From assembly GCF_000295095.1 (NCBI RefSeq), contig NZ_JH806633.1:622369-686368 (forward strand): 64,000 nucleotides of DNA, read 5' to 3'. A program made the position numbers and the translations under genes. Below the pieces are notes generated by a model. It worked only from the letters and a program-made list of their open reading frames with translations, was not told the origin of the DNA and ran no database searches. Below are positions 32,908-64,000 of the stretch, piece by piece; positions within the stretch are counted from its first letter, which is position 1, and every line of letters begins with the position of its first letter. The DNA is from Actinomyces timonensis DSM 23838. GTDB taxonomy: Bacteria > Actinomycetota > Actinomycetes > Actinomycetales > Actinomycetaceae.

Positions 32908-33612
32908 CTAGGCGGTCCCAGAGCTATGAGATGCCTCAGTGCCCTCAGCCGCGAGGAGCACGATCGAGGTCATCAGGTGATTGGCATCGCAGCTCCACCT
33001 GCCTGCCAGCTCCCAGGTCTCCCTCCCCGAGCCCAGAACGAGGGGCCTGGCCAGGGCCGCGCGGAAGCCTCCCGAGGGGTCGATGACGACGTCGGCCTCC
33101 TCGAAGCCGAGCCACTGGCGCGCCAGGGGGAACCACGCCTTGTACACACTCTCTTTGGCACTGAACAGGAGCCTGTCCCAGGCGGTGCCAGGACGGCTAG
33201 CCAGGAGCAGCCGGAGCCGCTCGGCCTCAGCCTCCGAGGCGACAGCCCCCAGCACCCCCGCGGGCATCCTCTCGTTGGGCTCGGCGTCGATCCCTACCGC
33301 GCACACGTCACTGGCCAGCGCGACAGCCGCGGCCCGGTAGCCGGCGCAGTGGGTCATGCTTCCCACCACCCCATCTGGCCAGGTCGGTGAGCCCGCCTCG
33401 CCCGGGACCATGGGGGGCCGGCCGAGCCCCAGTTCTCCCAGCGCCTCGCGCGCGCAGCGCCGAACCGTGGTGAACTCACGCCGCCGTTTCACCACCGCCC
33501 GAGAGATGTGAGCAGCCTCCTCGGGATACAACGGCTCAGGATCATGATCATGACGACGCTCGCTAACCCGGACACACCGCGGCACCAACTCCCTCAAGGA
33601 CGCACCACTCAT
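32908..33612 (-). CDS. Sfp/PptT-type 4'-phosphopantetheinyl transferase
   Basis: Transfers the phosphopantetheine arm of CoA to the serine of carrier proteins; the obvious activator of the ACP domains of this cluster. 234 residues from the ATG at 33612, which overlaps the upstream stop by 4 bases (ATGA); the open frame continues to 33663 but inside the upstream gene. Signature motifs in order: PTWPDGVVGSMTHCAGYRA, the Mg-binding GIDAEPN, and LLFSAKESVYKAWFPL with the catalytic Glu and Lys. The EntD-like form (SMTHC) is as in mycobacterial PptT. It is the last gene of the operon. The pairing with a metallophosphoesterase is the PptT-PptH arrangement known from mycobacteria. Confidence 0.9.
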   Translation of the reverse strand: MSGASLRELVPRCVRVSERRHDHDPEPLYPEEAAHISRAVVKRRREFTTVRRCAREALGELGLGRPPMVPGEAGSPTWPDGVVGSMTHCAGYRAAAVALASDVCAVGIDAEPNERMPAGVLGAVASEAEAERLRLLLASRPGTAWDRLLFSAKESVYKAWFPLARQWLGFEEADVVIDPSGGFRAALARPLVLGSGRETWELAGRWSCDANHLMTSIVLLAAEGTEASHSSGTA

Positions 33613-34518: not shown

Positions 34519-35244
34519 TCAGGCCGCCAGCCCACCATCCACACGAATCACCGTCCCAGTGACGTAAGTACTGTCAGGACCAGCCAGAAACGCGACGACG
34601 CTGGCAACCTCTTCAGGCAGCGCCGCCCTGCGCATGGGGATCTGAGACAGAGCGTCGTCAGAGATCGAGTCGTGCGCCATCTCCGTGCGGACCAGGCCAG
34701 GCGCAACAGCGTTGCAGCGCACGCCTCGCTCTGCGAGCTCCCTGGCCACCGACTTGGTCAGGCCGATCATCCCGGACTTGGCCGCAGCGTAGTTGGACTG
34801 GCCCACCGTACCAGTCAGCCCTGACACAGACGCCACGTTGATAATGGAGCCGTGACGCTGGCGCAGGAAGCCGAAGTAGCACTCGCGCGTCAGGAGGAAG
34901 GCTCCACGGAGGCTGACAGCCACGACCCGGTCGAAGTCCTCATCGCTGATCATGGCAGTTACGTTGTCCCGGATGACACCAGCGTTGTTCACCAGGACCT
35001 GGGGGTAGCCCAGCTCGTCGATAATCTCCTTGACCGTGGTGCGGACCTGGGAGGAGTCACTCACATCGCACTGATAGCCGACTGCCCGGCCGCCAGCCGC
35101 CCGGACCGCGGCACAGGCGTCATCGGTGGTCGACACTGCCGAGGAGCACAGCACCGCGACATCGTGGCCGTCCCGCCCCAGGCGCTCGACCACGGCGCGA
35201 CCGATACCGCGCGAGCCTCCGGTCACAACAGCCACCGGCCTCAT
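34519..35244 (-). CDS. FabG-type 3-oxoacyl-ACP reductase
   Basis: Classical short-chain dehydrogenase, 241 residues. Cofactor loop VVTGGSRGIGRAVV, NNAGVIRD, the active-site serine in NVASVSGLTGT and YAAAK with catalytic Tyr/Lys are all intact; PGLVRTEM and VDGGLA complete the fold. It overlaps the free ACP gene by 4 bases, so it is part of the polyketide operon. It may reduce an ACP-bound intermediate in trans, for example a unit whose module lacks an in-line KR, or a tailoring ketone. It is not part of the standard beta-branching cassette. Confidence 0.88.
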   Translation of the reverse strand: MRPVAVVTGGSRGIGRAVVERLGRDGHDVAVLCSSAVSTTDDACAAVRAAGGRAVGYQCDVSDSSQVRTTVKEIIDELGYPQVLVNNAGVIRDNVTAMISDEDFDRVVAVSLRGAFLLTRECYFGFLRQRHGSIINVASVSGLTGTVGQSNYAAAKSGMIGLTKSVARELAERGVRCNAVAPGLVRTEMAHDSISDDALSQIPMRRAALPEEVASVVAFLAGPDSTYVTGTVIRVDGGLAA

Positions 35245-37538: not shown

Positions 37539-40500
37539 CTCTGGACCCTTTCGTCTTCGTCCCGGCTTTCGCTCGAGGGGCGCGCCTCAGGCAGGCTGGC
37601 AAGAAGCTCGGCGCGCACAATTTCCAGTACTTGCGCCTCTGACTGCTCTACGTTGATGAACTGATGATCCCCCGCGAGGACGTGAAGGTTGACCTCTCGC
37701 GCTCCCAGGTCCTCCCACGCACGCGATTCTGCCAGAGAGACCCCGTAGTCGTCAACGCCGTGGAGCACCGTCATAGGCACGTCCAGCTTCTCACCTTCCG
37801 CGTGTTTGTATCGGTCGATCAGGCAGCAGGCCGCAAGCAGTTGCGGAAGAGTAGCGCGTGTCTCCGCCTCAGAGTACTTCCACGCCTTCACGTAGGCAGC
37901 CACTACCGCATTGAGGCGATGCTCGTCTCCCTCGATTTCATCGAACTGGGGAATCCGGTCGAATCCCTCGCGCTGCAACTCACGCAGCACTTTCTCGGTG
38001 CCTCCGTTGGGACGATTAGGGGCGGTGAACCCCGAGACAAAGGCGCGGACCACGTTAAGCGCCCCGCTGGTGCGCAGGCGGTGAGCCAGACGGAAAGAGA
38101 AAAGCGATCCCCAACTGTGCCCGAAGGTGGCGACGGGCAGATCTGAGAGGGCCTCTCCGACAATGCTCTCCAGCGTTTCGCAGAACCTGTCGACGTAGAC
38201 CGGGGGCGCCTCGCGCAGGCGTGACGCGTCCATTCCCGGTAGCTGGACTGCCAGGACCTGGATCTCGGGCCCCAGGACCTCTTGCCACCCGTCGAACATG
38301 TCCGCGCTTCGGTACCCGTTCGGGAAGCACAGCAGCCTCACCCTCGCGGGCCTCGAGAGTTTCTCAGTGCCGCGCAGCCAGTGCGACAGGGAGGTGTCCA
38401 CGGCATCATCCCCACGCCGGTCCTGCCGGTGCCGCTGCATCGCCGCGGCGATGTCCTGCGCGAGCCCGGCCAGGTCGTCCGCGTCCAGAAGGTCGGTGAG
38501 GGTGAGCGTCGTGCCAGTGCGCTCAGACACCTTGGTGTAGAGCTCCACACCCGTCATCGAGTCCAGCCCGAGGTCCTGCATCGCTAGCGCCGCTGATACC
38601 TCTGCCCGCTCCATCCCAAGGACCTCACTGACCAGATCCTGGAGCATCTCGAGCACAAGAGCGACCTTCCCCTCCTGCGAAGAACGCTGGAAGCGCGCGA
38701 GCAGAGCCTCGTCGACGCCCCGCTGGGAGGACTGAGCGGCCGTCATCAGAACGATCCTCTCCTCATCAAAGGCCTTGAGGACAACACGACCCATGTCAAG
38801 CTGTACAGCACCAGCATCGCTGGACACAGACAAGGAACCACTGAGGGTGCCCGAGTCGACGTCGATATCGTCAACGGTCACACGACCCCACCGCGGACCT
38901 TCCACGTCGTCGGGCGCGGTGGAGCCCCACAGCCGCACCCGCTCCACCCTCTGCACCATGTACTTCTGGCCAGCCGGTGTCCGCTCGTGAGAGAACCGGT
39001 TGAACGCCTGCGCGCAGGCATCGACGAAACCAGGGTGGAAGCCAAGCGCGTACTGGCCCCGACGGGGGGTGCCATCGGCTCTGCTCAGCTCCACGATCCC
39101 GCAGGTGCCATGTCGACGGCCAGAGACGACGGCCCGCACGGAGGGGCCGAAGTAGAAGCCCTTGTCGTTCTCCAGCGGACCATAGAACTCCTCCTGCGAG
39201 AATGGGACAGCCTCCTCGTCGTCAGCGAACGGCGCATCGGGGCACGGGTCGTGCGTCACCGACAACGCGCCACGCGCGATTGACGCCCACGACGCGCCCC
39301 CAGCCTCCCGGGTGTAGATCTTGAACGTCCCGGCAGGAAAGTCCTCGCTGAAGCTCAGCAGCACCTCGACCGGAGTATCCGGCGGGACGACCAGAGCCTG
39401 CAGCAGCTCCATCCACTCGACAACGAGGTGCCCCTCGTCCAGGACGGGGCTGGCCGCGCGCGAAAGGAGCTCCATGTAGTAGCCGATATGGACGATTCCA
39501 GAGTTGTCCGCCGCCTCACTGAAGCTCTCAGCGGAGAAGACATGCAGGATGTTGGGGTCAGTCCCGGGAAGGTCCAGTCGCGCCCCGTCGAGGGCGAACC
39601 TGTGAGCGTCGAGCAGCGTGCGCGGTCCTGGCTCATCCGCCTCCAGCCAGTAGCGCCCATGCTGGAACGGGTAGGTGGGAAGCTGTACTCCTCGCTCCAA
39701 GAGAGGCCCTCCCCTGGGCCACCGCACTGACCCTCCCAGAGCAGTTGTCTGAGCCAGAACCCTCGAGATCTCGGGTTTGCCGTCACCGTCGCCGGTGCGC
39801 AGCAGGACAACGTCGTCGCGCGCGCTCTGCAGGTGTCCGACCCCTCCCAGGAGCACGAAGCGGTAGCCCATCCTCTCGATGCCGGGCAGCGGGGACGACG
39901 AGGACGCCCCAGAGGCCGCATCAGCGCAGGCCATCTCCCAGGCAGCACGAGTGTCCCGCTCCACGGCGCCCGCCTCCCAGGAGCAGTAGCGCACACGGGG
40001 ACTGCGCAGCCGGGGAGCCCCGGGCCTCTCCCCCCGCGCTATCCGGCACAAGGCCCCGGCCGCAGAGTCCAGGTCGACCAGGCCAGCCAGCACGGCGGCA
40101 GCCATCGCCCCGCCTCCACAGCCAGTGACCAGGCTCGGCTCCACGCCCAGCTGTCGAAGCATCGTTCCCAGCGCGTAGGCATGGGAGAAGACATCTGCCA
40201 GGTCGCCAGCGCCCTGTGCGGCGGCAGCCGCGACCGCGCGGGCCTCGGCGTAGCCCGGCCACCTCGCCCACAGCTCCTGCTGGTCAGCGTCAGTCTTGTC
40301 CGACCCAAGAGCGAGAACGAACTTGGGTGGGATCTGGTCATCGGTGTGCGCCAGCAGCGCACGACCGTCGCTCAAGGTCAGGAACAGACGCCGACGGGCA
40401 GCGTAGCGGTCCCGGCCGTGGCTGGTTCCGAGAATCTCAACGGCGTCAGCGTAAAGATCCTTTCTGCCCTCCGCCCATCGACTCATCTCGTCAAGCACCT

Positions 40501-49982: not shown

Positions 49983-52900
49983 GATATGGCTCCTTCAGCT
50001 CACGCAGGACAAGGCCGTCGATCTCGACAATCACGCGTCCCGCCTCGTCTGCCACAGACAGGTCCAGGACGAACCGGTCTGCTGGCCCACGGCGTCGGAT
50101 GAGGTGCGCCCACGCCCGCATGGGCAGGGGGCCATCACTGAACCTCGCCGACTCCGCCGCGTATGGGAGGTACAGCCCTTGCTCGGAGCCGAGCAGGACC
50201 GCGCACTCGAACGCCGCGTTCAGCATGGGAGCCAGCAAGGAGGGGCTCTCGCTCTCCAGGGCACCCAGGCGCGCAAGCACCTGGTCGCCGCGAGAGCTGC
50301 ACGCCCGCAGCTGGCGGTAGCAGCCGAGATGATCGAGACCGCAGGAGGCCAGCAGCCGGCGCACAGGCGCGGCGTCACTGGGCTCGCCGCAGATCCCACG
50401 CAGGGCGTCAAGGTCAAGCCCCGGCACGACCGGGGCAGTCGGCTCCAGGCTCACCGTCGCGCTGGCCGCTGGCACCGCGCGGTCCTGCGCCACGACCTCG
50501 GCGCGCAGGGACTCAGCCGTTGGAGTCAGTACAGTGCGCACGTCAATGGGCGAATCGAGAGGAACCATGGCGGGCCACACGATGTCAGTCAAGGTGTGCG
50601 CAGGATGCTCAAGGCTGGCGGAGGCGGCGGTCCGCATCATCTCGAGCGATGCCGCGCCAGCCAGCACCGGCTGACCGGCGACGCGGTGGTCAGCCGCCTG
50701 CGGTACCCCCGGGCCCAGGCTGCTCACGAACTGCTGGGTGAACAGGGTTGACTCGTTGCGGTGCAGCAGTGGGTGCAGTGTCTCCCTCGCGCCCGGGAGC
50801 GAGGCGCCGTGGGTGGGGGGAACGGGTGGGACGGTGACAGCCGTTGGTCTCCAGTGGCGACGGCGGGCAAAGGGGTAGCCCGGCAGCGAGATCCGTCGGC
50901 TGCCCTGGGGACGTGGCCACGCGACCTTCTCCCCGGCCAGCCAGGCGCGTCCGGTGTCCGTGAGCGCAGGACGCCCGGTCTTCCCGGACACCAGCGCGTC
51001 AAGCTCCCGTTCCAGCTCCTCCTGGCTGCCGGCCACGACAAGGGCGCGGTGATCCTGAGCCAGGCGCCCCGCCTGGAGGGTGAAAGCGATGTCGACGAGG
51101 TCCTCGGGCTGCAGCGAGCGCGACCGCGACCACTCGAGGAGCTGGCTCGCCAGCACGCCCAGGTCACCCTGACGGCACGCGGAGAGCGGGATCTCCACCG
51201 TCACCGGCATGGCGGGGGCGGGGCGCTCCCGCTCTGGCTCAGGCGCAGAAGTCACGATGACATGGGCGTTGGTACCACCCGCGCCGAAGGTCGAGATCCC
51301 GGCCGTGCAGTGCGCGGGATCGGGCCACGGACGGGTACTGGTCACCAGCTCCAGGCCAGCACCGTCCCAGTCGACCTCAGGGTTGAGCTCGTCGGCATGG
51401 ATGCTGGGGACCAGCGTGCCGTGCTGCATCTGGAGCAGGACCTTGGTCAGCGACACGATGCCAGCAGCGCTCTCGCAGTGGCCGATGTTGGACTTGACAG
51501 ACCCGACAAGGCAGGCCCGCTGCCGGCCTGGGCCCAGCGCCATGCCCAGCGCCTCGATCTCGAGCGGGTCGCCCAGCCTGGTCCCAGTCCCGTGCGCCTC
51601 GACGTAGGCCACATCGGATCCCTTCACCCCCGCCCGGTCCAAGGCGAGCGAGACGACCCTCGCCTGCGCCGCTGGCCGGGGCACCGTGAACCCGTTGCTG
51701 CGCCCGCCGTGGCCCACCGCCGTCGCCGCGATCACGCCGTACACGTGGTCGCCGTCGGCCAGCGCCCGGGAGAGCGGCTTCAGCACAGCCACACCGACCC
51801 CCTCGGAGGGGACGTAGCCGTCTGCGTCCGCCCCAAAGGCCTTGCACCGCCCGTGGGAGGCAGCGAAGCCGGAGGAGTGGAGGAGGCGGAACTTGTTCGG
51901 GTGCGGCGACAGGTTCACCCCGCCGACCAGCGCGGCCTCGCACTCGCCCCTTCCCAACGACTCGCACGCCAGGTGCAGCGCCGTCAGCGAGGACGAGCAC
52001 ATGCTGTCGATGGTGAGGCTCGGTCCGCCGAAGCCGTATGTGTAGGAGATACGGTTGGCCAGGGACGCTGGCGCGCCGTTGAGCGTGTAGCCCGTCCCCG
52101 TCATCTGGGACTGCGCCGCGTAGAGCTGGTACTCCGAGTACATCGCACCGACATAGACGCCGACGCTCATCGAGCGGTCCTCCTGCGGCATTCCGAGATC
52201 CTGGGGAACGTACCCGGAGTCCTCAAGGGCGTGGTGGGCGCACTCCAGCAGAATCCGCTCCTGGGGATCCATCACCTCGGCCTCGACGGGCGCGATCGAG
52301 AAGTACCTGTCGTCGAAGCAGTCGGCATCCTTGAGCAGCCCCGCCCAGCCCGTAGCCGGGTCCTGGTCCCACACGGGGGCGCCGAGCGCCTCCCAACGCG
52401 CGCGGTCGAGCCTGTCGACACAGTCGCGCCCGGCGACCAGGTTCTGCCAGAACTCTGCCAGCCCCTCAGCGTGCGGGTAGCGACCCGCCAGCCCGATGAC
52501 CGCGATCTGCTCGTGGGCCGGCGGGTCATCCTCGGCCTGGCGCTCGTGCGCGGCGGCCTCACGCGCTGACGCGTCCTGTCGCCCGGACTCTCCCCCCTCT
52601 CCGGCGCCCAGCAGGACGGCGCACTCCTGCGGCCGCGTCTCCAGCAGGCTGCCAGCCAGCTCCCGCAGCGTGCGGTTGTCGAAGAAGAGGCTCTTGGGCA
52701 CCCGGCCCATCGTCGGGCGCAGCCGCTCGGCGAAGCTCATGACGATGATGGAGTCGACGCCATAGCTCTCCATCTCCTCGTCCAGGTCCAGGCGCGCCCG
52801 GTCGATCCTGGTCAGGGACGCCAGGATCTCGCGCAACCGGTCCGCCACCTTCTCGGTGTCCGAGCCGCCGCCGATCCCCGGCGCCTGTGGTTGTCTCCGC

Positions 52901-55900
52901 GATCGCCTCTGCGGCACGGCCTCTGCTTCTCGGGTCAGAGGACCGCCCCGCTCACGTGAGTCGTTGCGGCGGCAGCGCGACAGATAGCCGCGGACAGCGG
53001 GCAGGCTGCCCACCAGTGGGACCAAGCGGGTCTCGTCCCCATGGCGAGCGGCGTGGAGGACTTCCAGCGCGTCGCGTGTCGGCAGCGGGACCATCCCCGT
53101 GCTGACGTCCATACGCTCGAGCGCATGCCTGCTGAGCGTCATACCACCGTCCTGCCACAGTGGCCAGGCGATTGACACCGTGGCGCCACTGACCTTGCCG
53201 CGACGGACCAGGTCACGGCGCCAGGCGGCGAACTCGTCCTGGAAACCGTTCGCAGCCGCGTAATCGCTCTGTCCCGCGTTGCCAACCGTGCCTGCCAGCG
53301 AGGAGCACAGCACAAAGCTGCGCAGCGGCTGATCCGCGGTCGCGCGGTGCAGCGCCATCGTGCCAGTCACCTTCGGCCTCAGGACCTCGCGCACGGCCTC
53401 AGCCGACTTGGTCGCCACAAGCCCGTCGCGCAGCACGCCAGCGGCGTGGATCACGTCGGTGACCGGACCCGCCTCGGCGACGACCTCTGCGACAGCACGT
53501 CGCAGGGCAGGTTCGTCACAGATGTCGACCTGGATGTACCGGCAGCTGACACCGTCCCCGCCAAGACGCGCTGTCAGTGCGCGGATCTCCTCCTGAGGCT
53601 CCGTGCGGCCAAGCAGCACCAACGTGAGCGGGTCACCGTTCCGCCGCGCCCGGTCCGCGAGGTCCTCGGCGACGAGGCGGCCAACTCCACCCGCGCCCCC
53701 GCTGATCAGCCAGACACCATCGGCATGCCGGGGCGCGGTAACGGGCCACGGCTCCTCCCGCAGGGTCTCGGTCTCACGCTCGTGCTGGCTTCGCCGGACC
53801 GCCTCGTGGAGGACCGCCGCTCCTGCCTCCTCACCCGCCCATCTCGCTACCGAGGCAGGATCGCTGGCATCCGGGCAGAGCAGGGCCTGGACCTCGATGT
53901 CCTCCTCCTCCGCCCTGACGCTGCGCAGCATCGCGAGCAGCCCCGCCAGCAGGGAGCCGTCAGGGAGGACCAGTTGCACCACGGTGCGGCCACAGCGATC
54001 CGACGGGAGGCGCTGCAGCATCGACAGCGTCGTCTCCGCCGCCCGGATGTAGTCCTGCTCGAAAGAAGCATCCGAGGGCAGGAGTGTCGTCTCGGCCAGG
54101 GCCGGCATGTACGTCCCCAGGCGCTCGAAAGCGGTGAGGACTCGCCAGGTCGTGGGCAGGTCCTGCCGCTCCCTGGCGAGCGGTGCCGGACGCCACTCAG
54201 GAACCTGGATCATGCGCCCGGTCGAGGACGCGCGGAAGCGCAGGTCGCTGATACGGGCCAGCACGTCGCCAGTGGGCGAGCAGATCCGCACGTGCACGCA
54301 CCGCTCGTCGCCGTGATCCGTGTCAGCAGGCGTGGTCACTACAGCTGCCTCGTCCCATGACTGCCAGCCGCCACTGCCAACCTCGACACGCCCGATCGAG
54401 AACGGAAGCATCTGGCCCGCAGCCGCATCATCACCCTGGTTGAGGAAGGCCCACGTGCTCTGGAACGCGCCGTCGAGCAGCGCGGGGTCGAGAAGCGCGC
54501 CCGTCACCGCGGCCCCCGAGCGCCGCAGCATGGCGACCGCCGCATCCGTGCCGACTATGACGTCTCGGACCACCCGGTGCGTAGGGCCGTAGTCCAAACC
54601 GGAACCCGCGAGGGCCGAGTACACCTCGGCCCCCTCAACCCGGGTGCGGGCGGCCGCCCGCAGCTCCGCGAGCGCCACCCGCTCCTGTGACGCGGGAGTG
54701 GTCGCCATCTGGGCAAGGGCGTCGCAGTACTCCACCTCAGCGCCCTCATCGGTGCCCACGAGCCGAACGTGAACGCCGTCGCCCTCCCGCTCAGCATGCA
54801 CCTCCAGGGGCGCGCTGGCCGGTTCACGGCAGGCTCGGACAAAGGTGACCTGGGAGAGGACCACTGGTGCCCTGAGCGCCATCTGGGCAGCCGCGCGAAG
54901 CATCTCCACCATAGCCGCGGCCGGTAGGACAGGACCGCCGTCAACGTGATGATCACGGATCCATGACTCCGCACCGGTGAACGACGTCGTGAAGACCACC
55001 TGGTCCATGGTCGAGCGGTTGGCGTGCAGCAGCGGGTGCGGATACCGCCCAGCCCGCTCCTCGGCATCCGCGGGTGGCTCTGCCCAGCAACGCTCCCTGG
55101 CGAAGGGGTAGCCGGGCAGGCTGACCCGGCGCGCTGCGCGCCCCTGCCAGCCAGCCTGCCAGGGCACAGCGCGTCCGGCCACCCAGGCACGAGCCAGCTC
55201 GTCGAGCCGTGCGGCTCGCAGGAGCCCCATGACCCGCTGCTCGTCATCGGGATCCTGCTCCAGCACGGAGCCGTGGTGCTGCGCTCGGCCCAGCAGCACG
55301 GAGGAGCCCTGGCCATCGAGCACATGCTGGATCTGTTCAACCGCCTCATCGAGCGAGCCCACGACCACCGCAGCCCGCTGGGCCATCTCCTCTCGCCCGG
55401 TCTGCAGGGTCAGTGCCACGTCATCGAGCCGCAGCAATGGCGTGCGGGTGACATAGGCGATGAACTCCTGCAGGACCGCGCGTAGGCGGTCCTCGTCGCG
55501 CGCCGAGAACACCAGCACGTGACGGCCCTGGGACTCGGGACACCGAGCCACGGCAGGCGCCTCTTCCACGACGACGTGAGCGTTGGCGCCACCGGCCCCG
55601 AACGCGCTCAGTCCTGCCCGGCGCGGCGGGTCCGCCGTCCACGGGACCAGGCTTTTCGCGACGGCGACACCGGCCCCGGCGAAGTCGATATGCGGATTGG
55701 GCGGGTCAGCGTGCAGCGACGGCGCGACTTGGCCGTGCTGGAGCTGTAGCAGAATCTTCGCCAGACCCGCCACACCAGCCGCCGACTCACAGTGCCCGAT
55801 ATTGGACTTGACCGACCCGATAAGACACGGCTGGTCGCGGTGCCCGCCGCCCAGGACCGTGGCCAGTGCCCGCACCTCAATAGGGTCTCCTAGCTCAGTC

Positions 55901-58900
55901 CCGGTGCCGTGCGCCTCGATGTAGGAGATCGAGTCCGGGTCGACCTCGGCGTCGTGCAGGGCCGCCGTGATCACCTCGGCCTGGGCCTGGGAGCTCGGCA
56001 CGGTGAAGCCGCCAGCGTGACCACCAGAGTTCACAGCCGTGCCACGGATCACTCCCCAGATGTGGTCACCGTCGGCGACCGCCCGGTCGACAGGCTTGAG
56101 CAGCAGGGCGGCGACAGCCTCACCCGGCACGTAGCCGGTGCCTCCCTGACCGAACGCGCGGCACCGCCCGTCCCTCGCGGCGAACTTGCCTTGGGACAGC
56201 AGGACCAGCTTGTCCGGGTGGATGGTGAGGTTGACTCCCCCGACCAACGCCATCTCGGCCTCTCCCGAGCGGATACTGGCCGCTGCGGCATGCAGCGCCG
56301 TGAGCGAGGAGGAGCACATGGTGTCGAACGCGATGCTGGGCCCGCGCAGATCCATGAAGTGCGACACCCGGTTCGCCACGGCGGCGAAAGACGACGGGAC
56401 AGGGACACTGCGACCCTCGATGTCACCACGCAGCATGCCGTAGTGGCCGTACATGATCCCGACGAAGACGCCGATCGCACGGCCAGCCAGCTGAGCGCGG
56501 CTGTAGCCCGCGTCCTCCACGGCGTGCCAGCACTCCTGCAGGAACAGACGGGCCTGGGGGTCGAGGAAGGAGGCCTCGGCCGGCGAGATGCCGAAGAAGA
56601 GCGGGTCAAAGGCGTCGACGTCCTCGAGGAAACCGCCCCAGCGGGCATAGGTGGTGCCAGGAGTGCCGTCGTCACTGACGTAGGCCGCGTGGTCCCAGCG
56701 GTCCAAGGGCACCTCAGTGATGCAGTCGCGCCCCTCGCGCAGCAGCGTCCAGAGCTCGGGCAGGTCGCGCGCCCCGGGGAAGCGCCCGCTCATACCGATG
56801 ACCGCCAGGTCTCGATTCCCGGAGCTGGCACCGTGATGCTGGGCGCTCGTCCTTCCGCTGGGAGACGCCACGCCCGGCCCACCCTCCGTCCCAGGCCGCG
56901 CGGGGTGGTCCACCGAGGCCTCGGGGGTCGGAGCGGGCTCCTGCGCCCGGGCAAGGGCCGCGCATGTGTCCGCGTGGGTCCCGGCCAGCGTGAGCGCCAC
57001 CTCGTCGATGGAACGGTGCTCAAGGAACAGTGTCTTGGGCAGCGACCCGAAGTCCCGCTCCAGCGCCCGGGTCGCCGTCATCATCACGATGGAGTCCATG
57101 CCGAGGTCCTCGAAGGTGTCGTCCAAGCGAACACGCTCCGGCGGCGTACCAGTCGCCTCGCAAACGGCCTGCCGCACTCGGCCAGCGGCAGCAAGCGCCA
57201 ACTCACGAGATCCCGCGCCCGCGCGCTCCGGCGACCCGGCCTCTTCCTGTGGCTGGAGCAGGGCGCGACGCATCGCCGGGACAGATCCTTGTCCGCAGGC
57301 GATCGCGGATTCGGAGGAGGCCACTGCTCGGTCGATCAGCGACAGCGCCACCGCCGTGTCCAGCGGCACCATTCCCAGATCTCGACGCGCGGCCTCGACA
57401 GCGTCGTCGCTGATGGTCATACCGCCCTCGGCCCAGTAGGGCCATCCAATGCTCACTGTCCGGCCCTGGCGCTCCCCCGCCTCCCGCTGGCGCTCGCGCC
57501 TGGCCGCGGCCTCGTCGAGGTAGGCGTTGGCGACGCAGTAGGCCGCCTGCCCCGGGTTGCCCAACCAGGCCGACAGCGAGGAGAACAGCACCACACGCTC
57601 AAGAGGCTCCTCGCGCAGCACCTGGTCGACCACGTCAAAACCGCCTGCCTTGGGAGCCAGAACACGTGACACCTGGTCGGCAGTGGTGCTGCGCACCAGC
57701 GCGTCGTCAAGCACGCCCGCGACGTGATAGAGCGCGTCGACGGTTCCCCATACCTGGTGCACGCGGTCCACGGCCCGAGCGACGTCAGACTCGACGGCGG
57801 CATCGGCAACCAGGTACAACAAGTTGTCCCCTGCCGCCTCGGCCCAGTTCGGAAGCGGGTCGGGAGCCCCGGAACGAGACAGCACAGCGGCACGACCACC
57901 GGCTGCGACCACCGCCCGCGCGACGAGCGCGCCGACTCCCGAGGAGCCGCCGACGACGAGAGCCGTCTCGGCTCGCGGCTCGACGTGCTCCGGGAGCTCC
58001 ACTTCGGCCATGACAGCGACGCGCCGCTGGTCATTGGCGACCCGGACCAGCAGGTCGGCCTGGGCAGTCTCCTCCAGGACATGACGCGCCAGGTCCTCCG
58101 TCGCCCGGATCTGCAGCAGCGAGACGACGAGGGAGGACTCCAGCCGCAGTGTGGCCGCATACCCGGCCATGGCGGCTGCCGCCGGGCTGGATCCGCCAGC
58201 AAGGTCCACTAGCAGCACACGCGTCCCTCGGACGCCGTCGGTCAGGAGTGGCCTGACCACCTCCTGGCAGCACTCGAACAGATCCTGGACCCCCTGCGCG
58301 TCCGCGGAGGTCGTGGGCAGCACGATGATGACGGCGTCGCTGTCCTGCGCCCGAGAGACGAGGTCGGCCACGCCCTCCAGCGCGGGCTGGAGGCGCCCGG
58401 CGTCACCAGCGAGGCACACCCGTGGGCGAGCGGCGGGCCGCGGTCCGGTCTCTGCGCCAGGCGTCCACCTGCGCGCCACGGCAACGACACCGGTTCCGCC
58501 CACGGGGGCGAGGACCAGTCCGCTCGTCGAGGCCAGGACGGTGCCGTCGGCAGCGGTGATGTCGACATCGAAGCACAAGGACTCACCTGCGCGCCGGGTC
58601 GCGACGACGTGGCGCGCCTGCTGGGCCTCTCCCCAGATCTCGAAGCGCTCCGCCGCGAGCGGAAGATAGGTGCCGCCCGCGGGCAAGAGCGGTCCGACGC
58701 ACTGCCACGCCGAGTCCATGACGCCCGCCCAGGCGGAGTCCTCCGAGTCCTCCGGAGGAACCAGCAGGCCGGTGGCCTGACCGCCCTCGGCGCGAGGGTC
58801 TCGCAGTGCCTGGTAGCGGGGACCGTAGGTGATGGCCGCGGGAGCGGTCCTCGCCGTCACCTCGGGCAGGGCTGACACGGACGCCAGGTCCACCGAGCGC

Positions 58901-61047
58901 GAGGGGCCCGCCGTCGCCTCCCGGGCGACGACGCAGACCCGGGAATGGGAAAGAATGCTGAGCTGACCGTCATCACCTCGCTGGACGTCCAGCTCCAGGT
59001 GCTCCTCACGCGCCTCCAGCGGGTGCTCCCAGCGCAGGTCGACCAGGGCCGGGGCGCTGTCGCCGTGACGCTCATCAGCCTGGCGCAGGAGGATCTCGGC
59101 GGACGCTGTGGCAGGCAGCACCGGTACTCCCTCAATGCGGTGCTGGTCCACCCGCCAGTCCCTGGAGTCGATCGACACGCGGGAGCGCTCCTCACCCCGA
59201 CGCGCGCCACGAGCCTGCCCAGAGCCCTCGAACCACAGCGGCACACGCTCGAAGGGGTACGTCGGCAGGACGACGGACCTGCCGGATGACGTCTGTGGCA
59301 ACGTCGCCCAGTCGACCTCGTTCCCGCCGACCCACGCCTGCGCCACGGCATCCAGGCCGTCTGCCGCAGTGACAGCCGCATCACGGGTGGGCCGGGCACG
59401 GCCGCGGTACCAGCCCTGCCCGGAGGCGGCCAGCTGATGCAGCAACGAGAGCGCCTCCGACCTGTCCCGAGCCACGGCGGCTGCCCGCTCGGGCAACGCG
59501 TCACGGCCGCGTTGAAGTGTCAGCGCGACATCAGTCGCCGCCAGTTCCGGCTCCCGCTCAAGAGCAGCGGCCAGCCGCTGGGCGCACAAGCGCAACTGCT
59601 CCGGCGAGTGAGCCGACACGACCAGCACCACGGGAGTATCGCCCGCGTCCGGTCGCCGCGGCTGCTCCACGTGCTCCTGCACCACCAGGTGAGCGTTGGT
59701 GCCGGAGAAGCCGAAGGAGCTCAGCACTGCGCGGCGCGCGGACTCGCTCCTCCACTGACGGTGCTCGGTCCCGACCGTGAACGGGGAGCCGGCGAGATCG
59801 AAGTGCCGGTTGGGGGCGGAGAAATGCAGGGTCGGGACCAGCTCCCGGTGCTCCAGGCACATCACTATCTTCTGCAGCCCAGCGACCCCGGCCGCGGCGG
59901 AGGTGTGGCCCAGGTTGGACTTCACCGAGCCCACGGAGCAGAAACCGGTGTCGGAGGTCCAGCGCCGGAACGCGCCAGCAAGGGCAGTCAGCTCGACCGG
60001 GTCGCCGAGGATCGTGCCCGTGCCGTGCAACTCAGCGTAGGAGATCGTCCGAGGATCGATCGACTCCCGCTCGTACACCTCCTCGGCCAGGGCGCGCTGT
60101 GATGCCAGGCTGGGGGCGGTGATGCCGTTGGTCCGCCCGTCCTGGTTGATGCCGGAGCCGATGATCAGTGCGCGGACAGGATCACCGTCGCGCAGTGCGT
60201 CAGCAAGCCGCTTGAGCACCACCGCGCCCGCGCCCTCACCCGGCACGAAGCCATCGGCGTCATCGGACAGCGCGTGACAGGCACCCGTCGGGGACAGCAT
60301 CCCGGCGTCGGCCATCTGCGCCAGACCGTCTGGCGAGAGGTAAGTGGCCGCTCCCCCAGCCACCGCCATGTCGATCTCGCCGCTGCGCAGCGCGGTCACC
60401 GCCAGGTGCACCGCCACGAGGGACGACGAGCATGCCGTGTCGATAGTCAGCGCCGGACCCGCCAGGTCATAGAAGTAGGACACACGGCCAGCTGCGATCG
60501 CGTTGCTGGAGCTGGTCACGGAGGCCCTGGGCGACCCCGCGCGGTCGCCCAGGAGCAGATAGTCACCGTTGGCAAGGCCGAGGTAGACGCCGCACCGAGT
60601 GCCGGCCAGCCGGGCCCGGGCGTAGCCCGCGCTCTGGAACGCAGCGGCGCACTCCTCCAGGAACATCCGATGCTGCGGATCCATGGCCCGCGCCTCGGCG
60701 TGGGGGATCTGGAAGTAGGTCGGGTCGAACATCTCAACACCGTCGAGGTAGCCGATGCGCGGCGAGACGATGTCCCTCATGTCGGCCCCGCCGAACCGCG
60801 GCGGTAGCGGGCGCACCCCGTCTGCGCCGTCGGCGAGCATGCGCCAGTAGGCGTCCAGGTCCCCGGCCGCCGCATAACGACCGGACATGCCCACGATGGC
60901 GATGGGCCCGGTGCCGGGGGGCTCCGCCTCGGCTCTGGTGGCGGCTACCTGGTCAGCGCCGACCGTGAGCAGCCGCTTCGCCTCCGCCGGAGTGATGCGG
61001 TGCGTGCGAAGCGCCTCGAGGACCGCGGCACGATCCACCTGGCTCAT
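49975..61047 (-). CDS. Trans-AT PKS protein: KS-DH-KR-ACP / KS-DH-KR-ACP / KS-DH
   Basis: 3,690 residues. Residues 1-35 are a helical docking segment. KS1 (from 45; Cys206), DH1 (His near 637 in HRIEGVPVLP, Asp near 777 in VMDSAWQ), KR1 (GGSSGVG near 1030, Tyr in GQAAYCVAN), ACP1 (Ser1319). KS2 (from 1410; Cys1578), DH2 (His2033 in HHVDGGPVLP, Asp2192 in LLDGAFQ), KR2 (GGAGGVG near 2445, Tyr in GQSDYAAAN), ACP2 (Ser2766). KS3 (from 2850; Cys3017), DH3 (His3454 in HRVAGQPVLA). In DH3 the catalytic aspartate position is Asn3610 (MLNAAFE), so it is probably inactive. No AT domain is present anywhere. The third module is completed by KR-ACP at the start of the next protein. The start overlaps the upstream PKS stop by 4 bases. 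Confidence 0.94.
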   Translation of the reverse strand: MSQVDRAAVLEALRTHRITPAEAKRLLTVGADQVAATRAEAEPPGTGPIAIVGMSGRYAAAGDLDAYWRMLADGADGVRPLPPRFGGADMRDIVSPRIGYLDGVEMFDPTYFQIPHAEARAMDPQHRMFLEECAAAFQSAGYARARLAGTRCGVYLGLANGDYLLLGDRAGSPRASVTSSSNAIAAGRVSYFYDLAGPALTIDTACSSSLVAVHLAVTALRSGEIDMAVAGGAATYLSPDGLAQMADAGMLSPTGACHALSDDADGFVPGEGAGAVVLKRLADALRDGDPVRALIIGSGINQDGRTNGITAPSLASQRALAEEVYERESIDPRTISYAELHGTGTILGDPVELTALAGAFRRWTSDTGFCSVGSVKSNLGHTSAAAGVAGLQKIVMCLEHRELVPTLHFSAPNRHFDLAGSPFTVGTEHRQWRSESARRAVLSSFGFSGTNAHLVVQEHVEQPRRPDAGDTPVVLVVSAHSPEQLRLCAQRLAAALEREPELAATDVALTLQRGRDALPERAAAVARDRSEALSLLHQLAASGQGWYRGRARPTRDAAVTAADGLDAVAQAWVGGNEVDWATLPQTSSGRSVVLPTYPFERVPLWFEGSGQARGARRGEERSRVSIDSRDWRVDQHRIEGVPVLPATASAEILLRQADERHGDSAPALVDLRWEHPLEAREEHLELDVQRGDDGQLSILSHSRVCVVAREATAGPSRSVDLASVSALPEVTARTAPAAITYGPRYQALRDPRAEGGQATGLLVPPEDSEDSAWAGVMDSAWQCVGPLLPAGGTYLPLAAERFEIWGEAQQARHVVATRRAGESLCFDVDITAADGTVLASTSGLVLAPVGGTGVVAVARRWTPGAETGPRPAARPRVCLAGDAGRLQPALEGVADLVSRAQDSDAVIIVLPTTSADAQGVQDLFECCQEVVRPLLTDGVRGTRVLLVDLAGGSSPAAAAMAGYAATLRLESSLVVSLLQIRATEDLARHVLEETAQADLLVRVANDQRRVAVMAEVELPEHVEPRAETALVVGGSSGVGALVARAVVAAGGRAAVLSRSGAPDPLPNWAEAAGDNLLYLVADAAVESDVARAVDRVHQVWGTVDALYHVAGVLDDALVRSTTADQVSRVLAPKAGGFDVVDQVLREEPLERVVLFSSLSAWLGNPGQAAYCVANAYLDEAAARRERQREAGERQGRTVSIGWPYWAEGGMTISDDAVEAARRDLGMVPLDTAVALSLIDRAVASSESAIACGQGSVPAMRRALLQPQEEAGSPERAGAGSRELALAAAGRVRQAVCEATGTPPERVRLDDTFEDLGMDSIVMMTATRALERDFGSLPKTLFLEHRSIDEVALTLAGTHADTCAALARAQEPAPTPEASVDHPARPGTEGGPGVASPSGRTSAQHHGASSGNRDLAVIGMSGRFPGARDLPELWTLLREGRDCITEVPLDRWDHAAYVSDDGTPGTTYARWGGFLEDVDAFDPLFFGISPAEASFLDPQARLFLQECWHAVEDAGYSRAQLAGRAIGVFVGIMYGHYGMLRGDIEGRSVPVPSSFAAVANRVSHFMDLRGPSIAFDTMCSSSLTALHAAAASIRSGEAEMALVGGVNLTIHPDKLVLLSQGKFAARDGRCRAFGQGGTGYVPGEAVAALLLKPVDRAVADGDHIWGVIRGTAVNSGGHAGGFTVPSSQAQAEVITAALHDAEVDPDSISYIEAHGTGTELGDPIEVRALATVLGGGHRDQPCLIGSVKSNIGHCESAAGVAGLAKILLQLQHGQVAPSLHADPPNPHIDFAGAGVAVAKSLVPWTADPPRRAGLSAFGAGGANAHVVVEEAPAVARCPESQGRHVLVFSARDEDRLRAVLQEFIAYVTRTPLLRLDDVALTLQTGREEMAQRAAVVVGSLDEAVEQIQHVLDGQGSSVLLGRAQHHGSVLEQDPDDEQRVMGLLRAARLDELARAWVAGRAVPWQAGWQGRAARRVSLPGYPFARERCWAEPPADAEERAGRYPHPLLHANRSTMDQVVFTTSFTGAESWIRDHHVDGGPVLPAAAMVEMLRAAAQMALRAPVVLSQVTFVRACREPASAPLEVHAEREGDGVHVRLVGTDEGAEVEYCDALAQMATTPASQERVALAELRAAARTRVEGAEVYSALAGSGLDYGPTHRVVRDVIVGTDAAVAMLRRSGAAVTGALLDPALLDGAFQSTWAFLNQGDDAAAGQMLPFSIGRVEVGSGGWQSWDEAAVVTTPADTDHGDERCVHVRICSPTGDVLARISDLRFRASSTGRMIQVPEWRPAPLARERQDLPTTWRVLTAFERLGTYMPALAETTLLPSDASFEQDYIRAAETTLSMLQRLPSDRCGRTVVQLVLPDGSLLAGLLAMLRSVRAEEEDIEVQALLCPDASDPASVARWAGEEAGAAVLHEAVRRSQHERETETLREEPWPVTAPRHADGVWLISGGAGGVGRLVAEDLADRARRNGDPLTLVLLGRTEPQEEIRALTARLGGDGVSCRYIQVDICDEPALRRAVAEVVAEAGPVTDVIHAAGVLRDGLVATKSAEAVREVLRPKVTGTMALHRATADQPLRSFVLCSSLAGTVGNAGQSDYAAANGFQDEFAAWRRDLVRRGKVSGATVSIAWPLWQDGGMTLSRHALERMDVSTGMVPLPTRDALEVLHAARHGDETRLVPLVGSLPAVRGYLSRCRRNDSRERGGPLTREAEAVPQRRSRRQPQAPGIGGGSDTEKVADRLREILASLTRIDRARLDLDEEMESYGVDSIIVMSFAERLRPTMGRVPKSLFFDNRTLRELAGSLLETRPQECAVLLGAGEGGESGRQDASAREAAAHERQAEDDPPAHEQIAVIGLAGRYPHAEGLAEFWQNLVAGRDCVDRLDRARWEALGAPVWDQDPATGWAGLLKDADCFDDRYFSIAPVEAEVMDPQERILLECAHHALEDSGYVPQDLGMPQEDRSMSVGVYVGAMYSEYQLYAAQSQMTGTGYTLNGAPASLANRISYTYGFGGPSLTIDSMCSSSLTALHLACESLGRGECEAALVGGVNLSPHPNKFRLLHSSGFAASHGRCKAFGADADGYVPSEGVGVAVLKPLSRALADGDHVYGVIAATAVGHGGRSNGFTVPRPAAQARVVSLALDRAGVKGSDVAYVEAHGTGTRLGDPLEIEALGMALGPGRQRACLVGSVKSNIGHCESAAGIVSLTKVLLQMQHGTLVPSIHADELNPEVDWDGAGLELVTSTRPWPDPAHCTAGISTFGAGGTNAHVIVTSAPEPERERPAPAMPVTVEIPLSACRQGDLGVLASQLLEWSRSRSLQPEDLVDIAFTLQAGRLAQDHRALVVAGSQEELERELDALVSGKTGRPALTDTGRAWLAGEKVAWPRPQGSRRISLPGYPFARRRHWRPTAVTVPPVPPTHGASLPGARETLHPLLHRNESTLFTQQFVSSLGPGVPQAADHRVAGQPVLAGAASLEMMRTAASASLEHPAHTLTDIVWPAMVPLDSPIDVRTVLTPTAESLRAEVVAQDRAVPAASATVSLEPTAPVVPGLDLDALRGICGEPSDAAPVRRLLASCGLDHLGCYRQLRACSSRGDQVLARLGALESESPSLLAPMLNAAFECAVLLGSEQGLYLPYAAESARFSDGPLPMRAWAHLIRRRGPADRFVLDLSVADEAGRVIVEIDGLVLRELKEPYHA

Positions 61048-64000
61048 TCCGGCACCTCCTGCGCCATCAGCTCTGCGGCCTGGGTGGGAGGCACCGCGCC
61101 GTCGTAGACCTGGTGCAGCAGGGCGTCGAGGTCGTCCTGGGCACCAGCCGGCGCGTCAAGCATGCGGGTCTCCTGCGGAGGCGCGCTGGCAGCCACCTCT
61201 GCGGCCACCATCGTCGCGAATCTCTCCACCGTCGGGAACTCGTACAGCCTGGCCGTCCCCAACGCCAGCCCGAACTCCTTGTTCACCGCACGAATCCACT
61301 CCACCCCGACGACCGAGTCCAGCCCCTGCTCAGAGAATGTCAGGTCGAGATCCACGTCCTCGGGTTCCACGAACAGCTCCCGCGCCAGGCTCGCCACCAG
61401 GCGGTCCCTCACCTCCGACATGTCGGGAGCGGGCGGTGCCTCCTCACCCGCTGGCTGCTCCCGCACCGCGCCCACGGCTTGCCCCTCGGGCGAGGCGGGC
61501 GGCTCAGAGGAAGGCTCATCAAGGGTGACCTGCTGCGACGACGCGCATGGCGTCTCTGCGGGCACGGGCTCATCCAGCGGCATCAGGTGGACCAGCCCCT
61601 CCGGCTCAGGAGGCTCGGCCGGGCTGCTGGGCACATGCGCGCGGCTGGGAAGAGACTCGCGTGCCAGCGGATCCTGCGAGGTCGCTGGTGACAGCCTTCC
61701 TGGTGCCGGGGCCGTGGCACGAGTCGAGTCCGGACGCACCCAGTAAGCGCTGCGCTCGAACTCATAACCAGGAAGACTGATCAGCGGAGCGTCCTCGAAC
61801 AGGCGGGTGGGCAGCGAGTAGCCCTGGCAGTACAGCTGCGCGACGGCGCGAAGCGCCTCGTCGACGGCGACGGGATCGACCGCGTCCGCCACCACGGCCG
61901 CCTGATGGTCCATGAAGGCCGCCAGCCCAGCCACGGAGGCGGTGTCATGTCCCGAGGCACCGGAGAAGACACGCGCCCCGGTGTGGGACCCGGCAGCCTC
62001 GGCGAGTGAGGCGCACGCCTGGGCCCAGTCCGCGCAGACCACGGCGACCCGGTGCGACAGGTGGCGGCGGCCCACAGCGAGCGTGCGCGCGACAGCGTCC
62101 AGCGGTACGCGGGGGTGCGCCTCCAGCCACGTGCGCAACGCGCGTACCTGGCGTCCCAGAGCCTCCTCGTCCACCGCCGACACCGCGAGCAGGACGGGAG
62201 CCGCTGATGGCCGCATGTCAGGCAGGGGGTCGCCCTGCTCCAGGATGAGGTGCGCGTTGGTGCCGCTGAACCCGAAGGCGCTGGTCGCAGCACGGCGAGG
62301 GTGGGAGGCCTCGGGCCAGGCGCGGGCCTCACGGTTGAGATACAGGGCTGCCTCGTCCCAGTCGACGTAATCGCTGGGCTGATCGCAGCAGGCTGTCGGT
62401 GGAAGGGCCTCGTGCTCCATGGCCCCGATCGCGACGAGCGCGTTGACCAGGCCGGCGGCCGCCTGCGTGTGACCTATGGATGGCTTGACCGACATCAGCG
62501 CGCAGCTGTGCGGGGGCGCGGAGGAGTAGGCGCTCGCCAGGGCGCGCACCTCGACGGGGTCCCCAAGACGGGTGCCCGTCCCATGCCCAACCACCAGCCC
62601 CAACGTAGCCGGCTGGACACCAGCGGCCTCCAGGGCACGCGCGATGACGTCCTCCTGCGCGGACCCGCTCGGAGCTGTGATGCCGTTGCTGCGACCGTCA
62701 TAGTTCACGGCCGTCGCAAGAACCCGAGCGCTGACCCGACGACCCCGCCGACGCGCCGAGCCCTCGCGCTGAAGCACCAGCGCGACAACCGCCTCACCAG
62801 GCACCATGCCGTCGGCCCCGGAGTCGTAGGCACGACACCTCCCAGTGGGCGAGAGCATCTCAGCGTCAGCCATCGCGTCGAAGGTGGGAGGGGCGCTCAG
62901 CACGTTGGCGGCCGCGACGATCGCGGTGTCGCAGTCGCCCTGCTGCAGCGCGAGCCGAGCCTGGTGCAGCGCGACCAGGCCAGAGGAGCACGAGGTATTG
63001 ATGGCCATGCAGGGACCGGACAGGTCAAGGAAGTAGCTCAGCCGCGCCGCAAGCACTGAGTTGGTGTTGGACGTGACGCTTGCCTGGTCCAGGAGACGCG
63101 AGTAGTCGCCTTCCTCGATACCGACGTAGACGCCCACGCGCTCGCCGTGCAGCTCCTCATCCGTCAGCGCGGCATCCTCTACCGCGTGCCACATCTCCTG
63201 CAGCAGCAGACGCTGTCGCGGATCCATCTGGTAGGCCTCGCGGGGAGCGATGTCGAAGAACCTGGCATCGAACTCCGCGACCCTCTCCAGGCAGCCCATG
63301 CGACGGACGACGTCGTCGACGTGCCACTCCCGTCGTTCCTGCGGCACCGAACCGATCGCGCAGCGACCCGAGGCCACCAGGTCCCACAGCTCCTCCACTC
63401 CACGGGCCTGCGGGAACTGGCCGCTGGCTCCGACAACGACCACCTCGCCTGGCTGGCTGTCCCTCGCTGGCGCCTGGTCACTGCCCGGCCGGGCACCAGG
63501 ACCGTGGGGGTGCTCGCCCGCCGGGGCGGGAGCGGGCGCCTTCCCAGCGCGATCGGCATCCGCACCGGCCCCCGGCGCCCTCAGCAGCGCGGAGATCTGC
63601 TGCTCGTGACGCGACACCAGGCTGGCAACGACGTCGTTGACCGTGGACTCCTGATAGAAGTCCGAGGGCTGGACGGTCACCCCCAGCTTCTCGGTCAGGG
63701 CGCCTGCCAGCTCGACGAACGTGATCGAGTCGAAGCCGTAGCTCTGCAGACGCGCAGTGGGGTCGATGCGTGAGTGGTCCAGTCGCAGCACCGCTCCGAC
63801 CTCATCACTCACCACGGCACGAAGGCGCTCCTCAACAGGCCACCCGACCATGCGCGGCTCCCACGCCGCCCCAGCCCTGTCCTCAGGATCCTCGGCAACG
63901 GCCGGCGCATCAGGGACCGATGCCGGGACCTGGCCGGTCCGGGGCGCCTGGGGCCAGAAGCGCTCCCGGGAGAACACGTACCCGGGGGCCGAGACCAGCG
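61044..64000 (-). CDS. Trans-AT PKS protein, C-terminal part: ACP / KS-ACP(beta-branching); continues beyond right edge
   Basis: About 985 codons are visible and the frame is open through the right edge; the segment VFSRERFWP near 63970 is the linker that normally follows a KS, so another module lies upstream. Visible domains: ACP (serine of GFDSI near 63745), KS (about 62230-63450; cysteine in NTSCSSGLVAL, then GHGTGTRLGDP and IGHTQAAAG), a Pro/Ser/Glu-rich linker (about 61440-61760) and ACP (about 61190-61430). The last ACP reads GLDSVVGVEW: the tryptophan six residues after the serine marks beta-branching ACPs. The C-terminal tail (LDALLHQVYDGAVPP) looks like a docking segment for the next protein. 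No AT domain is visible. Confidence 0.92.
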   Translation of the reverse strand, partial: LVSAPGYVFSRERFWPQAPRTGQVPASVPDAPAVAEDPEDRAGAAWEPRMVGWPVEERLRAVVSDEVGAVLRLDHSRIDPTARLQSYGFDSITFVELAGALTEKLGVTVQPSDFYQESTVNDVVASLVSRHEQQISALLRAPGAGADADRAGKAPAPAPAGEHPHGPGARPGSDQAPARDSQPGEVVVVGASGQFPQARGVEELWDLVASGRCAIGSVPQERREWHVDDVVRRMGCLERVAEFDARFFDIAPREAYQMDPRQRLLLQEMWHAVEDAALTDEELHGERVGVYVGIEEGDYSRLLDQASVTSNTNSVLAARLSYFLDLSGPCMAINTSCSSGLVALHQARLALQQGDCDTAIVAAANVLSAPPTFDAMADAEMLSPTGRCRAYDSGADGMVPGEAVVALVLQREGSARRRGRRVSARVLATAVNYDGRSNGITAPSGSAQEDVIARALEAAGVQPATLGLVVGHGTGTRLGDPVEVRALASAYSSAPPHSCALMSVKPSIGHTQAAAGLVNALVAIGAMEHEALPPTACCDQPSDYVDWDEAALYLNREARAWPEASHPRRAATSAFGFSGTNAHLILEQGDPLPDMRPSAAPVLLAVSAVDEEALGRQVRALRTWLEAHPRVPLDAVARTLAVGRRHLSHRVAVVCADWAQACASLAEAAGSHTGARVFSGASGHDTASVAGLAAFMDHQAAVVADAVDPVAVDEALRAVAQLYCQGYSLPTRLFEDAPLISLPGYEFERSAYWVRPDSTRATAPAPGRLSPATSQDPLARESLPSRAHVPSSPAEPPEPEGLVHLMPLDEPVPAETPCASSQQVTLDEPSSEPPASPEGQAVGAVREQPAGEEAPPAPDMSEVRDRLVASLARELFVEPEDVDLDLTFSEQGLDSVVGVEWIRAVNKEFGLALGTARLYEFPTVERFATMVAAEVAASAPPQETRMLDAPAGAQDDLDALLHQVYDGAVPPTQAAELMAQEVPE

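Follow-up and report, generated by a model that had tools for sequence, protein, structure and literature searches.

The window analyzed in this study is a stretch of 64,000 nucleotides from Actinomyces timonensis DSM 23838 (C2:622369-686368, where C2 is the host contig NZ_JH806633.1; window position = C2 - 622368). It carries part of a trans-acyltransferase (trans-AT) polyketide synthase (PKS) gene cluster, which with a probability of roughly 0.85 belongs to the marinomycin/SIA7248 family and lies on a horizontally exchanged island at the 3' end of nusB. The cluster is related to a known antibiotic pathway, although its host is unusual, and is not a wholly new one. The family assignment is based on gene order, domain order, a free SiaM-type ketoreductase (KR), one beta-branch point, and a terminal module composed of ketosynthase (KS), acyltransferase (AT) remnant, dehydratase (DH) fold, acyl carrier protein (ACP) and thioesterase (TE). 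Cluster proteins are designated P0001-P0018, and P0019 is the NmrA-like protein of the left flank. Domains were called with Pfam, NCBIfam and profiles built for this analysis.

Trans-AT character and collinearity with Streptomyces clusters

No Acyl_transf_1 domain was detected (Pfam, E<=0.001) in the six modular PKS proteins P0007-P0011 and P0014, P0011 being partly hidden by N stretches of the assembly. The AT remnant of P0007 gives a weak match to mycocerosic acid synthase (E 0.009). P0016 is a free AT fused to a PfaD-type enoylreductase (ER), with 345.5 bits to fabD (cut-off 260.9) and 431.7 bits to pfaD_fam, just under the cut-off of 449.25. The lack of functional in-line ATs, claimed by the initial annotation for the modules of the window, also applies to the upstream modules as far as P0011 can be read. 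Its placing of a trans-AT cluster in an Actinomycetaceae chromosome agrees with the free AT-ER and with the best named relative of the HMG-CoA-synthase-like enzyme (HCS), which comes from Actinomyces denticolens DSM 20671 (genome G006, cluster contig C7) and is followed by Streptomyces sp. 7-21 (68%) and S. mutabilis (66%) among the best 80 of 347 relatives in the named collection.

The clusters of Streptomyces buecherae AC541 (G607) and Streptomyces sp. 7-21 (G606) served as stand-ins for marinomycin and SIA7248. Fourteen of the 18 proteins have a counterpart in 7-21 in the same order and orientation, and for 13 of these the counterpart is also the best BLAST match. P0001, P0002 and P0012 have no counterpart in either Streptomyces cluster, and P0013 matches a generic ABC ATPase elsewhere. 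The domain strings agree protein by protein with both clusters, except for weak DH-like stretches in Streptomyces, the place of the FAAL domain and the number of beta-branch ACPs. All three clusters possess 13 modular KSs. The initial annotation had found no recognizable pathway in the module series, which does not hold in view of this collinearity and the SiaM match described below.

A KS tree was constructed from the 13 KSs of each of the three clusters and 14 KSs of the bacillaene and thiomarinol regions, of which about 41 kb each were compared. Clades of the same position were formed by KS05 and KS08-KS13 from all three organisms and by KS01 from A. timonensis and 7-21 (support 1.0), that is, by 8 of the 13 KSs. 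The nearest outside KS stands at the same position in nine cases, a number reached in none of 100,000 position shufflings (mean 1.0, maximum 7). Eight is the fair count, since KS06 matches by default, the same 7-21 KS being nearest to all five polyol-type KSs. The KS comparison proposed in the initial annotation was carried out with our own tree and gave positional agreement for these eight and not for the five polyol-type KSs. A relationship to bacillaene or thiomarinol was rejected, as only single KSs resemble each other (KS08 and a bacillaene KS). A survey mentions homologues of bacillaene and of pristinamycin for Propionibacterium propionicum and A. timonensis DSM 23838 (PMC6469967). By sequence, bacillaene is not the closest match in our KS comparison.

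Among 177,635 distinct PDB sequences, SiaM (3woh) is the best match of the free KR (1.1e-81; next 2.1e-61), and the two have an IRD motif in common. SiaM is reported to carry IRD in place of LDD and is said to reduce SIA7248 dimer intermediates iteratively (PMC4046962). The KR-less modules, together with the free short-chain reductase, suggest a trans-acting KR.

The HCS cassette is complete and comprises HCS P0006, the KS-decarboxylase P0017, the enoyl-CoA hydratases (ECHs) P0015 and P0005, and the donor ACP P0004. Both ECHs exceed the cut-offs of polyketide-type ECH models; HCS, KS-decarboxylase and donor ACP stay below those of their best NCBIfam models. Residues E83, C115 and H248 of HCS, which we take to be catalytic, are invariant in an alignment of seven sequences. 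The motif DSxxxxxW, presumably the mark of beta-branching ACPs, occurs in one of the 15 PKS ACPs and gives one branch point after the polyol part. Its position corresponds to that in both Streptomyces clusters, each of which has three such ACPs, all with the motif. In a structure search with the predicted DH-fold domain of P0007, DH folds were listed first and the product template lower. This domain is presumed to form the ring, a function that does not follow from the fold search.

Several observations weigh against the family assignment. The comparison was made through the two Streptomyces stand-ins, not the published biosynthetic gene cluster (BGC) sequences of SIA7248 and of marinomycin (OL688631), and local identity per protein is only about 33% (P0018) to 68% (HCS). 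The best match of P0009 in 7-21 is a neighboring PKS, with the true counterpart second. S. buecherae encodes the second AT and the KS-decarboxylase on the opposite strand, and there P0014 has a counterpart by position only, its best BLAST matches being other PKS proteins. A FAAL-type domain opens P0011, whereas in 7-21 it lies in a FAAL-ACP-KS-DH protein. The family uses lactate or acetate as starter, and with this displaced FAAL the cluster may use a different one. The S. buecherae cluster stretch showed no FAAL within the 90 kb examined. KS02-04, KS06 and KS07 cluster by organism and not by position, as if homogenized within each cluster. The conjugated tetraene of the family would require three active DHs plus the branch. 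The third DH of the polyene protein P0009 shows HxxxGxxxxA and NxxxE, while the other two are canonical, and the polyene may therefore have one double bond less; the canonical motif is absent from the P0014 DH as well. In S. buecherae, HxxxGxxxxP was not detected by a pattern search of the DH in the fourth module, a module in which marinomycin would require an active DH if the numbering is right. Moreover, parts of two KSs are obscured by N stretches, and no product is known from the cluster.

The genomic island at nusB

The cluster apparently forms a transferred block of about 64 kb between nusB and the NmrA-like gene. Its core is nearly identical to that of A. denticolens (99.0% over the 40.7 kb of C2:655260-695920 and 98.7% over C2:704827-718824), compared with 85.7-92.9% in the left flanking blocks and 91.5% in the right one. 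Synonymous divergence (dS) to A. denticolens lies between 0 and 0.031 in 18 genes of the stretch that begins with the SiaM-like gene and ends with the histidine kinase gene, P0011 and P0012 being left out. It is 0.13-0.14 in the PPTase (phosphopantetheinyl transferase) and PptH-like genes and 0.08-0.28 in seven of eight flank genes, efp having 0.03. This contrast indicates that the core was recently exchanged or homogenized, while the PPTase-PptH end is of flank-like age. P0001 and P0002 were accordingly rejected as members of the 99% block, being as divergent as the flanks, and the recently exchanged part starts at the SiaM-like gene. The island, nearly identical in the two species, suggests that it was exchanged within Actinomyces in recent times.

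A decayed copy of the nusB 3' end at the left edge matches the intact nusB over 34 bp at 88% and the A. denticolens copy over 41 bp at 90%. The two flanks can each be aligned to one and the same 52-base segment at the 3' end of nusB in genome G008, an empty site. The shared alignment and the decayed copy suggest an att-like duplication. The empty site was read in three genomes. Within the sample of 49 Actinomyces genomes, homologues of the NmrA-like gene are present in 29 and elongation factor P (EF-P) in all 49. In the 28 other genomes with an NmrA-like gene, the gap from it to EF-P is below 1 kb in eight, 1-2.6 kb in ten (one with EF-P on the other strand) and 8-10 kb in two; in eight, one being A. 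denticolens, the genes are not on one stretch. The cluster-less G008 and G016, whose left gene is closest after that of A. denticolens, have a gap of about 650 bp which holds nusB only. No integrase was recognized among the annotated open reading frames (ORFs) of the island, a search that did not include small ORFs or the sequence hidden by the two N stretches.

In genome G024 (L125:2000-10900), nusB/EF-P and the NmrA-like gene are separated by an operon of sugar-use type with phosphotriesterase, PfkB kinase and sugar transporter families, so that the site behaves like a variable spot. In A. denticolens, an additional 3.1 kb separates the island from the NmrA-like gene and includes a better-kept nusB 3' copy and an ABC-F gene like ribosomal protection proteins (C7:41683-43341, L110:1683-3341; NF000355, 324.8 bits, cut-off 380) that is not at this place in A. 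timonensis. A perfect 19-bp inverted repeat (C2:718820-718838 and 718912-718930) lies between the histidine kinase gene and nusB, is matched at C7:43717-43735 of A. denticolens, and may represent a terminator or an element end.

HCS was matched in 6 of the 49 Actinomyces genomes at E<=0.001, and only A. timonensis itself and A. denticolens share it at 100% identity. The matches in the other four (31-34% identity) were set aside as probably ordinary HMG-CoA synthases. In the family, 2 of 213 genomes and 1 of 36 genera are positive at E<=1e-60, and in a class sample 5 of 394 genomes, A. timonensis included.

Proposed product and alternative readings

From sequence, the product is probably a polyol-polyene chain ending in a 6-alkenyl-salicylate and dimerized; the chemical steps, the starter, the dimerization and the antibiotic function are those we infer. 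The FAAL domain would activate a small acid and load the first ACP, and the free AT would feed every module, with the second AT-like protein P0018 possibly proofreading. Thirteen KSs would add 13 C2 units. KR-less KS-ACP modules would be served by the SiaM-like KR, giving a 1,3-polyol, and at the seventh KS, whose ACP is marked DSVVGVEW, the HCS cassette would add one beta-methyl branch. Three KS-DH-KR modules may then build a conjugated polyene, and the last three modules (without, with and without KR) together with the DH-fold domain may close the 6-alkenyl-salicylate ring. Finally, the TE would release the product, probably as a head-to-tail dimer (macrodiolide).

The megasynthase could also be switched by a PptT/PptH writer-eraser pair. 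PptT is the best NCBIfam model of P0001, below its cut-off (211.4 of 365), and P0001 is the only Sfp-type match in the genome (E<=1e-15). The sole PDB match of P0002 up to E 1 is 6unc, which we take to be PptH, a phosphopantetheinyl hydrolase, the record being titled Metallophos domain-containing protein. Full-length PptH-like proteins are found in 2 of the 49 Actinomyces genomes, both of them cluster carriers, with partial matches in three more. In the class sample, 133 of 394 genomes encode a PptH-like protein and 130 a PPTase, often side by side (e.g. G566, G444, G560, G269 and G513), and in G231, which has a related HCS, PptH lies 1.4 kb from the AT genes. It is a tentative idea, which we hold with low confidence, that an Actinomyces lineage associated with animals and humans exchanges the recent nusB island as a working marinomycin-type antibiotic factory making a new analogue through cross-protein FAAL loading, possibly with one double bond fewer, and with a possible writer-eraser switch.

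The best surviving alternative, although a doubtful one, is a different scaffold within a wider group of salicylate-terminated trans-AT pathways, e.g. a monomeric macrolactone that has another starter and a shorter polyene, in place of a dimer like marinomycin or SIA7248. The clusters of Ruminococcus bromii YE282 and Paenibacillus apiarius share a similar end module, SiaM-like KR and HCS and differ in module numbers, which shows that the product cannot be read from the end module by itself. The displaced FAAL and the altered third polyene DH also fit this alternative, as does the likening of the end module to AjuH of ajudazol in a 2023 paper (PMC10127220). However, the 13 KSs and their order agree with both Streptomyces clusters, unlike those of R. 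bromii and P. apiarius.

It is distinctly unlikely that the cluster is a decaying transferred remnant without product, though its GC and GC3 (third codon position) are lower than those of the flanks, no integrase was recognized, and having one beta-branch ACP and degenerate DHs could reflect losses. Against decay, the ten genes compared have a dN/dS (nonsynonymous over synonymous) of 0.25 and no inner stop, and the exchanged block also includes genes for regulators and transporters. The active sites are largely kept: Cys in 13/13 KSs, both His motifs in all 11 KSs uncut by N, Tyr/Asn in 6/6 KRs, Ser in 14/15 ACPs and canonical motifs in 3/5 DHs. A truly new trans-AT pathway unrelated to known ones, which the low identity to named clusters and the unusual host might suggest, is hardly credible given the collinearity, the SiaM match and the KS positions, and was rejected.

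For the marinomycin/SIA7248 family, a 2024 paper reported the SIA7248 BGC in the human oral cavity (PMC10813093), so this kind of cluster, perhaps this very cluster, is already known. Marinomycin is reported active against methicillin-resistant Staphylococcus aureus (MRSA) and vancomycin-resistant Enterococcus faecium (VREF), and its HCS gene has been deleted (PMC10813093). Among the matches listed, the literature showed no isolated product from an Actinomyces trans-AT cluster and no link between marinomycin and Actinomyces. The initial statement that no characterized trans-AT polyketide was known from this kind of host agrees with this as regards isolated products, and is qualified by the oral-cavity report. 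If an oral Actinomyces makes a relative, the oral community would hold a polyene antibiotic of the marinomycin class. Elsewhere, this class is known to us from Streptomyces-like bacteria. Newly described here are the nusB island, the exchange with A. denticolens and the PptT-PptH pair, the literature search not being aimed at the island, nusB or PptH; likewise the FAAL on a different protein, the beta-branch mark on one ACP instead of three, the altered polyene DH and the broader occurrence of the terminal module, seen in R. bromii and P. apiarius. Such a compact version, with a single beta-branch ACP and a displaced loader, provides natural variants from which the working of the assembly line may be understood.

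Cluster organization and comparison with known systems

Ten minus-strand genes of the operon fill window positions 32908-64000. With the chosen starts, seven of the nine pairs of neighboring genes overlap by 4-11 bases or are separated by a single base; the other two pairs are 35 and 58 bases apart. The initial annotation of a ten-gene unit mostly joined in this way, of seven KSs on four giant proteins (1 on the cut-off P0010, then 3, 2 and 1), and of the module series was confirmed by the domain calls, and its closing of the operon with a beta-branching cassette, a PPTase and a PptH homologue by Pfam, NCBIfam and PDB.

Table. Features at the left edge of the island and in the cluster part within the window
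Feature	Window position	Strand	Evidence or remark
NmrA-like NAD(P)-binding protein P0019	31913..32779	-	Pfam; chromosomal left flank, outside cluster
Decayed copy of nusB 3' end (att-like repeat)	32849..32889	.	Left island edge; intact nusB at C2:718950-719516
Sfp/PptT-type 4'-phosphopantetheinyl transferase P0001	32908..33612	-	Pfam, PDB; longest frame to 33663
PptH-like metallophosphoesterase P0002	33609..34460	-	PDB 6unc, 1.8e-82
Free SiaM-type, putatively trans-acting KR with IRD motif	34519..35244	-	PDB best SiaM 3woh, 1.1e-81
Donor ACP of beta-branching cassette P0004	35241..35489	-	NF005502, 78.9 bits, just below cut-off 79
ECH2, decarboxylating enoyl-CoA hydratase of HCS cassette, P0005	35525..36286	-	NF005496 over cut-off; start chosen
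HMG-CoA-synthase-like enzyme (HCS) P0006	36288..37538	-	Pfam/NCBIfam
Terminal module protein P0007	37535..42088	-	KS-AT remnant-DH-fold-ACP-TE
P0007 KS domain	40529-41989
P0007 AT remnant	39980-40294
P0007 DH-fold domain	38675-39559
P0007 ACP domain	38450-38638
P0007 TE domain	37580-38359
PKS P0008	42078..49982	-	KR-ACP, KS-(degenerate ACP)-ACP, KS-ACP-KR
PKS P0009 (polyene part)	49975..61047	-	KS-DH-KR-ACP, KS-DH-KR-ACP, KS-DH; third DH 50008-50775
PKS P0010, C-terminal part	61044..64000	-	KS 62040-63446; ACP 61209-61394 (DSVVGVEW); rest beyond window, C2 to 695666

As had been predicted, the cluster runs past the right edge. The contig was read on to C2:741 kb, and the operon extends to C2:713997, 27.6 kb past the window, with the rest of P0010 (ACP-KS-DH-KR-ACP-KS-ACP-KS-ACP-KS-ACP), P0011 (FAAL-KR-ACP-KS..ACP-KS..), an ABC permease, an ABC ATPase, P0014 (ACP-KS-DH), ECH1, AT-ER, the KS-decarboxylase and the second AT-like protein P0018. 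Divergent genes for a response regulator, an ABC ATPase, a protein without Pfam match and a histidine kinase follow, and then nusB and EF-P. Two of the 13 modular KSs are partly cut by the N stretches C2:696126-697237 (1112 bases) and 699455-700186 (732 bases), which also hide the end of P0011. P0011 (L011:1059-9386) has two KSs with nearly identical N-terminal parts, with the N stretches soon after and the end of the A. denticolens contig nearby, a pattern as a repeat would cause. Window positions 1-9201 hold long ORFs at the left edge, then carboxyltransferase and biotin carboxylase genes. A KS match at C2:618829 falls in a 1513-aa frame, probably a type I fatty acid synthase, and an N stretch of 316 bases is found immediately to the left of the window.

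Among known systems, the SIA7248 cluster of Streptomyces sp. A7248 is alike in its trans-AT character, in SiaM, the closest solved relative of the free KR, in its loading module (KS01 groups with the KS01 of the FAAL-bearing 7-21 cluster, support 1.0) and in its C30 monomer, which 13 extensions fit. The A. timonensis cluster differs in the FAAL on the second PKS protein, the one beta-branch ACP, the PptT-PptH pair and the ABC pair within the operon. Its fourth KS module also has canonical DH motifs; by our numbering, it corresponds to the module in which SIA7248 is said to have no DH (PMC10813093).

Marinomycin, from 'Marinispora' CNQ-140 and predicted also in S. buecherae, shares the order of PKS proteins, the position of HCS and ECH2 behind the terminal gene, the degenerate first ACP in the KS11 module, the terminal KS-AT-DH-ACP-TE and the DH in the fourth KS module. 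It differs in three tandem beta-branch ACPs and is said to start from acetate without a loading module; the S. buecherae KS01 does not group with that of A. timonensis. For strain ID71268 (S. buecherae), the 2023 paper gives marinomycin-like masses and UV and a predicted cluster in which six KS-ACP and six KS-DH-KR-ACP modules are accompanied by a terminal KS-AT-DH-TE, which is compared with AjuH (PMC10127220). AjuH itself has a terminal KS-AT-DH-TE module tied to an aromatic ring; it is myxobacterial, belongs to an otherwise different pathway, and is likened by description (PMC10127220), not by sequence.

Farther away, the Firmicute R. bromii YE282 (G622:C52, L144-L148) has a large trans-AT cluster with a similar terminal module, SiaM-like KR, HCS, ECHs, KS-decarboxylase and AT-ER. 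P. apiarius (L149-L153) possesses a similar terminal module, in which no ACP was detected, and the same further enzymes, with the ER part of AT-ER seen. The two clusters differ from that of A. timonensis in the number and order of modules.

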